NCBI GenBank assembly: GCA_030584185.1
Contig: CP129495.1
Location: forward strand, 703,608 to 767,607
DNA: 64,000 bases
From: Acidimicrobiia bacterium
GTDB taxonomy: Bacteria > Actinomycetota > Acidimicrobiia > Spongiisociales > UBA11373
Reading direction: 5' to 3'
The position numbers and the translations under genes were made by a program. This document shows, in pieces, positions 30,290 through 35,665 of this stretch. The notes below the pieces were generated by a model that was not told where the DNA came from, did no database searches, and worked only from the letters and a program-made list of their open reading frames with translations. The first letter of the stretch is position 1; every line of letters starts with the position of its first letter.

Positions 30290-31003
30290 CTAAAGCGGTG
30301 GGTGCGCCAACCCAAGGTCGACCGCCTGGGAGAGGATCGCCACCATCATCTCGGTGGTGAGCCTCCCGGTGAAGGTGTTCTGCTGGCTCGGGTGGAAGCA
30401 TCCGATCACCGTGTAGCGACCCGCCGTGAACACGGCTCCGTGGCCGAAGGCCGGCCGGGGACGCGGCAGGGAAGAAACGGCGGCGGCGAGATGCCGAAGC
30501 ACGGCGGCCCAGGCGAACCCTCCCAAGCACACCAGGACCCTCGCTTCCGGGAGGAGTTCCAGTTCCTCTGTCAGCCAGGGCAGGCAGCGGTCGCGTTCTT
30601 CGGGGGTCGGCCGGTTGGCCGGTGGGGCGCAGCGCACGGCAGCGGTCACCCAGGCGCCGGTGAGGGCGAGCCCGTCGTGGCGGTGGCGAGAGGCCGGAAC
30701 CGATGCCAGACCCACCTCGTGCATGGCCCGGTAGAGGAAGTCGCCCGATCGGTCGCCGGTGAACATCCGCCCGGTTCGATTGGCGCCATGTGCTGCCGGG
30801 GCGAGACCGATGAGGACGACCCGGGCGGCGGGATCGCCCCAGCCGGGGACCGGCCTGCCCCAGTACTCCTCGCCTGCGAAGGCGCGTCGCTTCTCCCGGG
30901 CACACCGCTCTCGCCACTCCACCAGGCGCGGACAGGCGCGGCATGCGGCGATCCGGTCGGCGAGTGTCTCCATCTGCCCCCAGCCTCGCCGGACATCTGC
31001 CAT
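30290..31003 (-). CDS. udgB: Family 5 uracil-DNA glycosylase
   Basis: A 237-residue Fe-S uracil-DNA glycosylase. Motif GLAPAAHGANRTGRMFTGD is the family 5 (UdgB) active-site motif A, lacking the Asp/Asn water-activating residue of families 1-4, and HPSQQNTFTGRLT is motif B. The four candidate cluster cysteines are C21, C24, C125 and C140. It removes uracil, hypoxanthine and similar lesions from DNA. ATG 31003 is used; METLADRI at 30973 is an alternative start. The gene lies just downstream of the sigma factor gene, 17 bases apart, likely in one transcript. Confidence 0.9.
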   Translation of the reverse strand: MADVRRGWGQMETLADRIAACRACPRLVEWRERCAREKRRAFAGEEYWGRPVPGWGDPAARVVLIGLAPAAHGANRTGRMFTGDRSGDFLYRAMHEVGLASVPASRHRHDGLALTGAWVTAAVRCAPPANRPTPEERDRCLPWLTEELELLPEARVLVCLGGFAWAAVLRHLAAAVSSLPRPRPAFGHGAVFTAGRYTVIGCFHPSQQNTFTGRLTTEMMVAILSQAVDLGLAHPPL

Positions 31004-31020: not shown

Positions 31021-31953
31021 TCAGAGAAGCGATTCCAGGTCGAACCCACTCGACGGGTGGCGCAGCTTGGCCAGGGCGCGGCCCTCGATCGATCGGACCT
31101 TCTCGCGTGTGAGCTCGAACACCTTGCCGACGTCGGAGAGGGTCCGAGGCGCCGCTCCGTCCAGGCCGTACCTCAGGGCGATGACCACCCGCTCCTCCTC
31201 TTCGAGCATCGCCATGGCACTGCCGATGTGGTCTCTGGCCGAAGCCTCGACCACCAGCTCGAAGGGATCGACGACTCCGCCATCCTCGACGAAGTCGCCC
31301 AGCTCGGCATCTCCGTCGGATCCCACCGGCCGCTCGAGAGAGACCGTCTCACCAGGGGCGGCCAGCGCCAGGTCCACCCGGTCCGGATCGAGCCCCGAAG
31401 CGTCGGCGATCTCCTCGCGTGTTGGAGAGCGCCGCAGTCGCTCGCCCAGTGAGAGGACGGTCTCCTGGACGGTTCGGACCACGTCGACCATGTGTACCGG
31501 AAGCCGAATCGTCCTCCCCTGGTTTCCGAGTCCCCGGGTGACGGCCTGTCTGATCCACCAGGTGGCGTAGGTGGAGAACTTGAACCCCTTGCGCCAGTCG
31601 AACTTCTCGACTGCCCGGATCAACCCGAGGTTGCCTTCCTGAACCAGGTCGAGAAGTTCGAGCCCGCGGCCGGTGTAGCGCTTGGCGATCGAGACCACGA
31701 GCCGGAGGTTGCAGCGGATGAACTCCGACCTGGCGTCTTCGCCCTCTCGTACCAACCGGTACAGACGAGCCCTCTCCGAGGAATCGAGGCCGGTGGCGGT
31801 GTCGAGGCGGGATCGTGCCCGCCTTCCCGCCTCCATGGACCGGGCCAGCCTGACCTCGTCCTCGGCGGTCAACAGCTCGTGACCCGAAACCGAATCCAGG
31901 TACATCCCGATGGCATCCGACACCGGAGCCGAGTCCTTGAGCCGCCTGGCCAA
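31021..31953 (-). CDS. Group 2-like sigma-70 factor
   Basis: A 310-residue sigma factor with regions 1.2 (SDAIGMYLDSVSGHELLTAE), 2 (NLRLVVSIAKRYTGRGLELL and FSTYATWWIRQAVTRGL), 3 and 4 (ERVVIALRYGLDG and LTREKVRSIEGRALAKLR). Region 2.4 is intact, so it should read -10 boxes. The size and the lack of a long N-terminus make it a non-essential (group 2, HrdB-like) factor rather than the primary one. The start is TTG with a purine run (GAAGGGGG) about six bases upstream. The 176 bases before it hold the DnaA-box cluster. Confidence 0.9.
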   Translation of the reverse strand: MARRLKDSAPVSDAIGMYLDSVSGHELLTAEDEVRLARSMEAGRRARSRLDTATGLDSSERARLYRLVREGEDARSEFIRCNLRLVVSIAKRYTGRGLELLDLVQEGNLGLIRAVEKFDWRKGFKFSTYATWWIRQAVTRGLGNQGRTIRLPVHMVDVVRTVQETVLSLGERLRRSPTREEIADASGLDPDRVDLALAAPGETVSLERPVGSDGDAELGDFVEDGGVVDPFELVVEASARDHIGSAMAMLEEEERVVIALRYGLDGAAPRTLSDVGKVFELTREKVRSIEGRALAKLRHPSSGFDLESLL

Positions 31954-32017
31954 GCAGTACCCCCTTCGAGGAGAGGCGTCGCGACGCTATCACCACCGCC
32001 GATGGTCTCGCAACAGG

Positions 32018-32115
32018 TTCTCCACAGGTCCTGTGGACAACTGCTGGGGCCAGGCTGCGCCCAACCGGCAACAGGGAGGCGGCTCCGATCGGTCGCCCGG
32101 ACCAGGTTGTCCACA
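32018..32115. promoter_or_regulatory. Cluster of three DnaA-box-like 9-mers, two forming a palindrome
   Basis: TTCTCCACA (32018-32026, plus) and TTGTCCACA on the minus strand (32032-32040) face each other. Their core TCCACAGG-T-CCTGTGGA (32021-32037) is a perfect 8-base inverted repeat. A third, exact TTGTCCACA lies at 32107-32115. TTGTCCACA is the preferred DnaA box of actinobacteria. The cluster occupies the 176-base gap (31954-32129) between the end of the SbcC-like gene and the start of the sigma factor gene, so it sits in the sigma promoter region. The palindrome could alternatively be a transcription hairpin. Confidence 0.55.
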
Positions 32116-32129
32116 GCGAGGACCGCGGA

Positions 32130-34559
32130 TCAGAGCGCGGGGAGTTCCTGGAAGCGGTCACGTTCGCCCAGAAGGTTGGCCTCGGCCCACGAGCGCACCT
32201 CGTCCTCCTGGGAGAAGAGGATGATCTGGGTGTCGGCACTGAGGCGATGCATCAGTTCGAGCAGGGCGATGGTCCGCTCGGTGTCTGACTGGACGGTGAG
32301 GTCGTCGACCACCAGGAACGGCTTCTCTCCCTCCGCCACGAGCACCTCCGCCAGGGCCAAACGCAGAAGGAAATAGATCTGCTCCGTGGTTCCGTGGGAC
32401 AGCAATCCGGCGTCCTTCCATGCGCCACCGGGTGTCCGGACCGTGATCGACAGCGTCCTGGCGTCGACCCCCACCTCTCGATAGCGGTCGGAGGTGATCG
32501 CCGGGAGGCGGGCCTCGATCGCACCCTTGAGGATCGGCGCCGCCGTGGCGAACACCGCCTTCTGCGCCTCCTCCAGCAGCGCTCGCGCCTTCTCGACGAC
32601 ACGCTGGCGGCGGAGGAGGCGCCCAAGTCGATCCTGGGCCACTGCCAGGTTCTCCTCGAGGGTGGGGACGTCCGGAGCCTTCTCCTCGAGCACACCGACC
32701 TCCCCGGCGAGACCATCGAGGCGGGATCGGGCCTCCTCGACACCCGCTTCCGCCGATCTCAGAGCCGCCTGAGGGTCGGCGGGTCGTTGCCCGGCAGGCC
32801 GACCGCCGAGATTCGCCACCGCCGCTTCTGCGACTGTTAGGCGACGCTGCCAAGAGGCGACGTCTTCGCCGGCGAGCAGGGTGCGCAGACGGGACCAGGC
32901 CTCCAGTTCCGCCTGGGCGGCCAGGCGCTGAGCATCGAGCTCGGCGGCGGCCCCTTCCACGGCCGCCACCAGGGTGCCTACGTCATCACCTGATGGCTCG
33001 ATCCCGAGGGCGCGGGCGCTGCTGCGAAGGGTGTCCAACACCTCCCGGCGGCGCTGGGCCTCCGCCCGCCGCGCCCTTGCCGCACGAACGGCGCACTCCC
33101 CCCGGTACCTCTCCATCGCAACTTCGACCGGCTCCCCTGGTGTCGGTTCGAGGCGGCCCCGCAGCGCTTCGAGCAGCGCTTCCTCGGCTCGACCCACCGT
33201 CGCCACGGCCTCGGCCAACTGATCCTCCTCTGCGGCACCGGGCCTTCGACGATCGGAGTCGCCACCGGCGATCTCCCGGCGCACCAGCCAGAGCACACCG
33301 GCGGCAGCGAGAACGACGGCACCGAGCGCCACCAGCGCGATCCCGGTGGCGGCACTCCCGATGGCAAACGCCACTCCACCGCCGACCACAGCCGCGGCCC
33401 CGGCTCCGGCGAATCCTCCAAGCCTCGCTCGCCTTGCGGGAACACCGCCCGCAGCAGGGGCCACCGCCCGCACCCGCTGCTCCAGGCCGGCATGGATCCG
33501 GCGGGCGGCGCGCAGCTCGGCCTCGGCCTCGATCGCCGCTGGGTGAGGGGTGACATCCCCTTCGATCGGAACGCCGGCATCCTCTTCCGTCGGCAGGTCA
33601 GGCGCACCTTCGGGTTCGGCACCCAGACGCCTCCAATCCTGGAGCGCCTGCTTCGCGGCCAGAACCAGATCCTCGCGGCCGGATGTCGACAGTGGCCGCT
33701 CCAGGTCGGGGAACCTGTTCGCCAACTCGGTGATCTCGGCAACTGCCTCGCCCAGGCGCTCCGCCTCCTCGACGGCGACCCAGGCGCGCGCCTCCCGAAG
33801 TCGCCGGTTCGCCGCCGCCAGTTCGGCGTCGGCGGTGGCAAGCGCCTCGTGGCGGGCATCGATCTCGGCGTGTGCCTCCCGGGCGCGCGCCATCTCCGCG
33901 GTGGCCTCCTGCTCCTGGTCCATGGCGATCCGCAGCGGCTTGGTGTGGGCACGAACGGTGCCCACGTCATCGGCCAGGTGCCTGGCGAGTCGCTCGAGGG
34001 CACGGTTCACATTGGCGTCGCCGGACCGCGAGTCGAACGCCTGCTCCAGCGGTCCCTGGAGCAGGCTCCCGGCAAGCGGGACCCTCTCGGCTCCGGGCTT
34101 GCGCTCCACGAAGGCGGCGTACACATCGGCCTGCCGGATGAACAGGGTCGGCCACAGCAGCTCCCGCCTGAGCCCCAGGAGTACCGATCCGTCGGGACAC
34201 CCTTCGTGCATGTGCTCTGCCGAGAGGTCCCTGGCAGTAGTCAGCTCGACGATGTGGCACCCGCGGTGACCTCCGAGGTCGTGCCGGATCTCATACTCGG
34301 TTCCGTCATCGGCCACCACCCGCACTGCGACTTCCCAGGGTGTGTCGTTCCAAGGACGATGTCGGCTCTCGAAGGCGGCGTCGAACGCCGTTGACCCCTG
34401 CGCTCGCCGCCGACCGCCCAGCCCTGCGTAGAGGGCGGCGTGCCAGGCGGACTTTCCTGCCTCGTTGGGACCTACGAGCACGTTGAAGCCCTCGGCGAAC
34501 TCGAGCGACCGCCCGGAGATGGCACCGAATCCGGCCACATCGATTCTTCGGAACCTCAC
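32130..34559 (-). CDS. SbcC/Rad50-like ATPase, YhaN type, with central membrane hairpin
   Basis: An 809-residue protein. The N-terminal ATPase half has FAEGFNVLVGPNEAGKS (P-loop 30-37); long Ala/Arg/Glu-rich coiled coils follow. A hydrophobic pair of helices lies at about 383-427, and the C-terminal half closes with PFLVVDDLTVQSDTERTIAL (Walker B). Rad50/SbcC proteins work on broken DNA ends with an Mre11-type nuclease. The internal membrane hairpin in place of a zinc hook is the feature of Bacillus YhaN. It starts at GTG, overlapping the nuclease gene stop (GTGA). Confidence 0.85.
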   Translation of the reverse strand: MRFRRIDVAGFGAISGRSLEFAEGFNVLVGPNEAGKSAWHAALYAGLGGRRRAQGSTAFDAAFESRHRPWNDTPWEVAVRVVADDGTEYEIRHDLGGHRGCHIVELTTARDLSAEHMHEGCPDGSVLLGLRRELLWPTLFIRQADVYAAFVERKPGAERVPLAGSLLQGPLEQAFDSRSGDANVNRALERLARHLADDVGTVRAHTKPLRIAMDQEQEATAEMARAREAHAEIDARHEALATADAELAAANRRLREARAWVAVEEAERLGEAVAEITELANRFPDLERPLSTSGREDLVLAAKQALQDWRRLGAEPEGAPDLPTEEDAGVPIEGDVTPHPAAIEAEAELRAARRIHAGLEQRVRAVAPAAGGVPARRARLGGFAGAGAAAVVGGGVAFAIGSAATGIALVALGAVVLAAAGVLWLVRREIAGGDSDRRRPGAAEEDQLAEAVATVGRAEEALLEALRGRLEPTPGEPVEVAMERYRGECAVRAARARRAEAQRRREVLDTLRSSARALGIEPSGDDVGTLVAAVEGAAAELDAQRLAAQAELEAWSRLRTLLAGEDVASWQRRLTVAEAAVANLGGRPAGQRPADPQAALRSAEAGVEEARSRLDGLAGEVGVLEEKAPDVPTLEENLAVAQDRLGRLLRRQRVVEKARALLEEAQKAVFATAAPILKGAIEARLPAITSDRYREVGVDARTLSITVRTPGGAWKDAGLLSHGTTEQIYFLLRLALAEVLVAEGEKPFLVVDDLTVQSDTERTIALLELMHRLSADTQIILFSQEDEVRSWAEANLLGERDRFQELPAL

Positions 34560-35665
34560 GGCTCCCCCAGCGGATGGCCTTCGAGCGCTCTGAGCCCGAC
34601 CAGGAGCACCTCCCTCGACTCCGCCTCGTCGAGGCCTGCGTTCCTCACCCTGCGAACGAACTCCCCGCGGATGGACTGCTCTTCAGCAAGCGATTCCAGG
34701 TCATAGGAAGGGATGAGGGCGCCGGACACCACCTGTAGGGCGTCGAGATCGGGCCCGAGGGTTCCCAGCGCCGTCAGGTCGAGTTCCAGGGCCGGATCGA
34801 TCTCGCCGACAACCGTGAGCCGAACCGACCCCTCGAGCGACGCCAACAGCTCCCTGCCCCTGTTCGCCAGGGCGGTGGCATCGGTCAGGCCGGTCACATC
34901 GAGCTCGACGTCGGCGACCCGCGAGGTGGCCACCGAGATCCTCGACACCGCCACCTTGCCGTCGCCACCGACTTCGGCGATCACCAGCCCGGCGTTCTCT
35001 CGCTCCCCGAACGACAGCGGATCGGGGTTTCCGGGGTACAGAAAGGTCGCCTCGTCCCGGGCCCGGTGATAGTGCCCGACAAAGGCGAACTTCAGCCCGC
35101 TCTCGGCGACCGCCTCCGGCCGGAATGGGGCATGGCCGGCCTTGGGACGACCGGCGTGGTCGCGGTCTTCGGTTGCGATCCCGCCCAACGCCGCCCCGTG
35201 GAACAGTCCGATGTGGACCCCCGAGTCCGGGGCCGAGAAGCCCTCGAGGAAGCCGGGGGTACCCGCAGGGGCGCGATGTGCCGCCCCCCACAAGGTGAGG
35301 CCGTCGGCGAGCTCGAAGGGGGTCAGCCGGGCCTCCTCGAACACGTGGACGTTCGGGCTCCACTCCCCGCGGGCGTAGAGGCTCGCCGGCCCGAACCAGT
35401 CGTGGTTGCCCGGAGCCACCAGCACCGGCACATCCACAGAGGCGAAGGTTCGCTCGAGGAACCGCAGGGTGTCCTGGCCGGACCGCTCGTGCTCGTAGAG
35501 GTCGCCGCCGCAAAGGATGGCGTCCACCCTTTCTGCCGCTGCCGTTTCGAGAATTCGGGTCAGGGTGGAGCGGATGTTGTCGCGACGCCGCCTGCCGGCA
35601 TCGCCCAGGTTGGCGAAGGAGGCATCCAAATGGAGGTCGGCGAACATCGCCAGCTTCACGCTCAC
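34556..35665 (-). CDS. SbcD/Mre11-like metallophosphoesterase, YhaO type
   Basis: A 369-residue nuclease-type metallophosphoesterase. The five metal motifs are visible: FADLHLDA, CGGDLYEH, APGNHDWFG, GLFHGAAL and FVGHYHRA. A C-terminal capping region follows. It should form a complex with the YhaN-like ATPase encoded by the overlapping next gene and cut or trim DNA. The GTG at 35665 is close behind GAGG; GTG 35659 (residue 3) gives a better ribosome-site spacing and may be the real start. Confidence 0.88.
   Translation of the reverse strand: MSVKLAMFADLHLDASFANLGDAGRRRRDNIRSTLTRILETAAAERVDAILCGGDLYEHERSGQDTLRFLERTFASVDVPVLVAPGNHDWFGPASLYARGEWSPNVHVFEEARLTPFELADGLTLWGAAHRAPAGTPGFLEGFSAPDSGVHIGLFHGAALGGIATEDRDHAGRPKAGHAPFRPEAVAESGLKFAFVGHYHRARDEATFLYPGNPDPLSFGERENAGLVIAEVGGDGKVAVSRISVATSRVADVELDVTGLTDATALANRGRELLASLEGSVRLTVVGEIDPALELDLTALGTLGPDLDALQVVSGALIPSYDLESLAEEQSIRGEFVRRVRNAGLDEAESREVLLVGLRALEGHPLGEP

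Follow-up and report, generated by a model that had tools for sequence, protein, structure and literature searches.

The window, as we call the whole stretch of 64 kb analysed here, comes from an Acidimicrobiia genome that consists of one contig of 2,211,559 bp (2.21 Mb). In a gap of 176 bp between an SbcC-like gene and a sigma-70 family gene, both on the minus strand, it holds three 9-mers of DnaA-box form and the predicted core promoter of the sigma gene. The features are:

30290..31003, minus strand: uracil-DNA glycosylase (UDG) superfamily gene (Pfam UDG), 17 bp 3' of the sigma gene
31021..31953, minus strand: sigma-70 family gene, 310 aa, SigB/HrdB-like (Pfam, NCBIfam and structure match)
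31984..31989, minus strand: predicted -10 TAGCGT with an upstream TG (GTGATAGCGT), 18 bp from the -35, kept in the family and the order
32008..32013, minus strand: predicted -35 TTGCGA, which aligns in box-bearing and box-free family orthologs alike
32018-32026, plus strand: DnaA box TTCTCCACA, the half of the inverted pair nearer the promoter, 4 bp 5' of the -35
32021-32037, no strand: 17-bp palindrome TCCACAGG-T-CCTGTGGA, made by the inverted box pair
32032-32040, minus strand: DnaA box TTGTCCACA, the other half of the inverted pair
32107-32115, plus strand: distal DnaA box TTGTCCACA, which reads TGTGGACAA in the direction of the sigma gene
32130..34559, minus strand: SbcC/Rad50-like ATPase gene, 5' of the intergenic region (context only)
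34556..35665, minus strand: SbcD-like phosphoesterase gene (context only)

The boxes and their rarity

The sigma gene starts with TTG at 31953. Its product has regions 1.2, 2, 3 and 4 and no region 1.1, which places it in group 2 (SigB/HrdB-like); it scores 347 bits against the NCBIfam SigB subfamily, under the cut-off of 464, and its nearest solved structure is SigB 7pp4. The genome has two paralogs that are about 47-50% identical to it. Read along the sigma gene, the order is distal box, 66 bp, the inverted pair with its gap of 5 bp, 4 bp, the -35, 18 bp and the -10, and the three boxes together span 98 bp. All three fit the right-clade form TT(G/C)TCCACA, the strong DnaA box of high-GC organisms (PMC4285127). 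The intergenic region has no further box at up to 2 mismatches, and the locus has no tandem partner box at 2-3 bp spacing with fewer than 3 mismatches. A sequence-only reading of the window had reported the three 9-mers and a palindrome formed by two of them; each was found again with the same sequence, position and strand.

That reading also held that such clustering is unlikely by chance, and the counts bear this out. The window has three TTNTCCACA sites, all in this cluster, whereas shuffles of the window give 0.52 on average and reached three in 1 of 100. Genome-wide there are 26 sites; among them no other three fall within 98 bp, which makes the cluster unique in the genome, and the sole close pair elsewhere is just 5' of dnaA. 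When 26 sites are placed at random, the probability is about 1e-5 for a trio within 98 bp and about 0.03 for a pair. The genomic total is a modest excess over the 18 sites of a reversed-pattern control, and single boxes inside genes occur at background frequency. Each of two nearly identical tuf genes, which lie about 18 kb from one another (L021 and L022; genome C1:1683842 and 1702013), contains an intragenic TTATCCACA.

Conservation at the sigma promoter

Orthologs of the sigma gene were collected by protein search over 14 family genomes, and their promoters were compared in 11. The distal box and the proximal inverted pair are present at the sigma promoter in seven of the 11 (G000, G001, G003, G004, G008, G010 and G011), at a sigma identity of about 72-75%. 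Most of the related genera thus keep the cluster. The conserved blocks in the alignment are the boxes and the core promoter. In all seven genomes the distance from TCCACA to the -35 is 22-25 bp, while the flanks diverge, and the boxes follow the sigma promoter irrespective of the upstream gene. There is variation in detail: the half-site gap of the proximal pair is 5 or 6 bp depending on the genome, one half-site is degenerate in several, the proximal element is rearranged in G011, and the distal box of G008 has the opposite orientation. A helical phasing rule between distal and proximal boxes was sought, and the distances (65, 77-79 and 100 bp) give no clean one. Palindromes of the form TCCACA-N4-7-TGTGGA number nine in the 14 family genomes (34 Mb); six are at the sigma promoter, against 0.0007 expected in those promoter stretches. 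Among the sites listed for G000, G001, G003 and G004, spacing within 200 bp occurs only at dnaA and the sigma gene. The upstream DNA of paralogous sigma genes (18 loci, 12.6 kb searched) has no boxes. Two more close box pairs occur in a fragmented relative, G002 (L162:1253-1328 and L163:1454-1569), with no clear gene start nearby in a quick ORF call.

The remaining four family orthologs (G005, G006, G012 and G013) lack the boxes and keep the core promoter. The sigma tree groups the box-bearing orthologs in a single clade (support 78/81), which is consistent with a single gain of the boxes in the family. The order-level comparison covered orthologs from 119 genomes and included upstream DNA. 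Other families of the order retain a similar -35/-10 core, nearly all without boxes; since this holds for them and for four orthologs within the family, DnaA control would not be essential to the sigma gene. In family f3, 13 of 20 orthologs carry a strict box close to the sigma gene, usually TTTTCCACA lying over the -10, a position that would suit repression. One member, G022, has an inverted pair 5' of the -35, as at the present locus. Because f3 also carries boxes there, a box was probably placed at the orthologous sigma gene more than once. The f3 sequence over the sigma-gene -10 is TAGTTTTCCACA, a strict DnaA box seen in many genera (e.g., L126, L134 and L150).

The sequence-only reading had proposed that DnaA could regulate a sigma/udgB operon and so link replication to DNA repair. 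The first half of the regulatory proposal is supported, as the boxes are sited to regulate the sigma gene; the operon is not conserved. In the present genome the UDG gene is probably co-transcribed with the sigma gene. In relatives its position near the sigma gene differs (upstream, divergent or about 2 kb off), while the boxes remain at the sigma promoter, and a conserved sigma/udgB operon was rejected. A link to repair through UDG is thus weak.

Other genes with the box and its candidate reader

The same box marks a few other promoters. At dnaA it is present in 13 of 14 family genomes; the contig of the 14th, which is short, shows none. The dnaA sites of the family form a triplet, TTCTCCACA...TGTGGATA...TGTGGAGAA, and the dnaA promoter of the present genome has TTCTCCACAGTTGTGGATAGTCCTGTGGAGAA. 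A MerR-type regulator gene has the box in all 12 family genomes compared, with eight positions fixed and A, G or T at position 3. Its site (L300 upstream, genome C1 about 205364-205386) is TTNTCCACA-N5-TGTTGACAA, the right half of which holds a TTGACA -35. Against solved structures this gene gave generic MerR matches only. It follows a bifunctional nuclease gene, and Rv1830 (McdR) we take to be the MerR gene after the nuclease; the gene order suggests that the box-bearing gene is the counterpart of McdR. An order of FtsR, nuclease and MerR is described in Actinobacteria (PMC6683498), and mycobacterial McdR functions in both division and DNA repair (PMC9040748). The McdR-like target would offer a better, though indirect, link to repair than UDG.

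Single boxes are found at two more genes. The gene nrdJ for a B12-dependent ribonucleotide reductase has one in eight of 12 family genomes; in the present genome (L320 upstream, C1:1603162-1603170) it lies beside NrdR-like repeats. The nrdJ frame is much longer in the present genome and G004 (1999 and 1565 aa) than in most others (about 1140-1210 aa), and in both it has an intein N-terminal splicing match. Among family orthologs of an orphan DNA methyltransferase gene, 10 of 13, G003 included, have a single box, which lies just 5' of a -10-like TACGGT. In the present genome this site is a palindrome, TTGTCCACAGACCCTGTGGA, about 40-50 bp 5' of the gene (L066:1501-1520, genome C1:1147238-1147257). 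A divergent gene that adjoins the methyltransferase gene (L066:2620-3017) has a long GDQDDT-type acidic repeat tail. A wider regulon, built from single boxes in G001-G004, was considered and dropped, as only the methyltransferase, nrdJ and MerR genes recurred and most other boxes were single or intragenic.

The DnaA of the present genome keeps the DNA-binding signature GGRDHTTVLHG. Since these sites are found at dnaA and at a gene for ribonucleotide reductase, the reader of the boxes is most simply taken to be DnaA. One caution concerns arrangement: E. coli DnaA prefers tandem boxes at 2-3 bp spacing (PMC11317965), whereas those at the sigma promoter are inverted. The boxes in the lineage's own dnaA promoter are also inverted.

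A candidate DnaA-regulated sigma promoter

In our judgement the locus is quite likely a DnaA-regulated promoter of the SigB/HrdB-like sigma-70 gene, inside a small DnaA regulon that would comprise the sigma gene, dnaA itself, nrdJ, the McdR-like MerR regulator and the orphan methyltransferase. We infer that DnaA would bind the inverted pair directly 5' of the -35, together with the distal box some 75 bp farther up, and that bound DnaA would alter transcription of the sigma gene. From a predicted start at about 31977, the pair is centred near -52 and the distal site near -134, a geometry that would fit a regulator contacting RNA polymerase from upstream. Activation appears somewhat more likely than repression, at a little over even odds, because the boxes lie 5' of the core promoter without overlapping it. 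E. coli offers precedents both ways, with nrdAB regulated up or down and rpoH down (PMC8203912). Sigma supply may track the level or nucleotide state of DnaA and hence the replication cycle, and the cell probably ties a switch in sigma-gene transcription to that cycle.

Other explanations for the same sequence have to be weighed against DnaA control. An inverted repeat beside a -35 is a common form of operator, and a dimeric regulator distinct from DnaA might read the palindrome, its likeness to DnaA boxes being incidental. A half-site gap of 5 bp in some genomes and 6 bp in others would be unusual for one fixed dimer, and the nrdJ, methyltransferase and distal sites are single 9-mers. The occurrence of the same 9-mer at the dnaA promoter, and variation at the MerR gene in position 3 alone, as in DnaA boxes, argue further for DnaA, and we regard a different factor as unlikely. 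The repeat could also act in RNA, as a hairpin that terminates the SbcC-like gene, with the box likeness due to chance: it has 7-8 bp arms and lies between a same-strand upstream gene and the sigma promoter. No U tract follows it, however, it is kept in G004 where the upstream neighbour is divergent, and the distal box is conserved as well, so that a terminator is hardly credible. Nor does a chance cluster with no function deserve more weight. Intragenic single boxes do occur at the background rate and the genomic total only modestly exceeds the control, but the low probability of the trio, and its retention upstream of orthologs in seven genomes at the sigma identity given above, speak against coincidence and leave it next to no probability.

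The cluster might instead serve mainly in replication control. An origin at this locus, which the sequence-only reading had already discounted, was rejected: dnaA and dnaN are at 1.356-1.359 Mb, about 0.62 Mb away. GC skew, sampled in 8 kb stretches of the genome, has negative values between about 0.24 and 1.32 Mb and, beyond 1.40 Mb, mostly positive ones (the stretch at 1.84 Mb departs from this); since it switches there, the origin is placed at or near dnaA. A datA-like titration site or a DARS-like site that reactivates DnaA, with little effect on transcription, is another reading. Like the E. coli sites DARS1 and DARS2, the locus is intergenic, away from oriC, and has three boxes of which two are opposed, as are DARS boxes I and II (PMC8682772); its distance from dnaA and the skew switches suggest a roughly mid-replichore position. 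Set beside the DARS core (PMC8682772), the layout is not compact: the opposed boxes are 5 bp apart and the third is 66 bp away. The tandem double box with 2-3 bp spacing that is listed for DARS1 and DARS2 (PMC11317965) is absent, no partner being found under 3 mismatches, and no IHF or Fis is shown for the locus. The boxes are fixed relative to the sigma -35 and stay when the upstream gene changes. As for titration, which had been offered as an option from the sequence, the locus has three strict boxes in a comparison with datA, just 3 of the genome's 26, and their place relative to the promoter is fixed, so that it is improbable as the main role. Altogether we consider a site of either kind very unlikely.

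Work on the role of DnaA in transcription has centred on E. coli, B. subtilis and Caulobacter. The nearest precedent for the proposed DnaA-regulated sigma promoter is E. coli rpoH, likewise a sigma-factor gene whose promoter region holds DnaA boxes. DnaA represses it (Wang and Kaguni, 1989, cited in PMC8203912), and its promoter has a DnaA ChIP-seq peak (PMC11317965). It differs in encoding a heat-shock sigma and in that the E. coli site as listed holds a tandem pair, where the present gene is SigB/HrdB-like, has an inverted pair 5' of the -35 and belongs to the Acidimicrobiia. Autoregulation of dnaA is named for Streptomyces and mycobacteria in the same review (PMC8203912); there too actinobacterial DnaA boxes lie in a promoter, as does the triplet at the present dnaA, but the gene targeted here encodes a sigma factor and is 0.62 Mb away from dnaA. 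The E. coli nrdAB promoter, which DnaA activates or represses (PMC8203912), resembles nrdJ in having DnaA boxes at a ribonucleotide reductase gene, of which nrdJ has one; nrdJ differs in being class II and B12-dependent, with its box next to NrdR-like repeats, and the main target here is the sigma gene. No relevant paper came up in a literature search on whether DnaA controls sigB-type genes.

In Caulobacter, the DnaA-CcrM cell-cycle circuit puts regulators, a DNA methyltransferase included, under replication-linked control. The set of genes proposed here has that likeness, although the match of the present methyltransferase to CcrM is weak (59 bits, where the cut-off is 830). It is possible, if doubtful, that DnaA heads a replication-linked circuit in this deep actinobacterial lineage with direct control of the principal-like sigma factor, the McdR-like MerR regulator, the orphan methyltransferase and the ribonucleotide reductase, forming a DnaA-sigma-methyltransferase cascade independent of that in Caulobacter.

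For an uncultured lineage, the sigma gene, dnaA, nrdJ, the methyltransferase gene and the McdR-like gene make a short, testable candidate DnaA regulon. A DnaA site kept in different genera at the promoter of a SigB/HrdB-like sigma gene would provide a route whereby replication status could reset global transcription.
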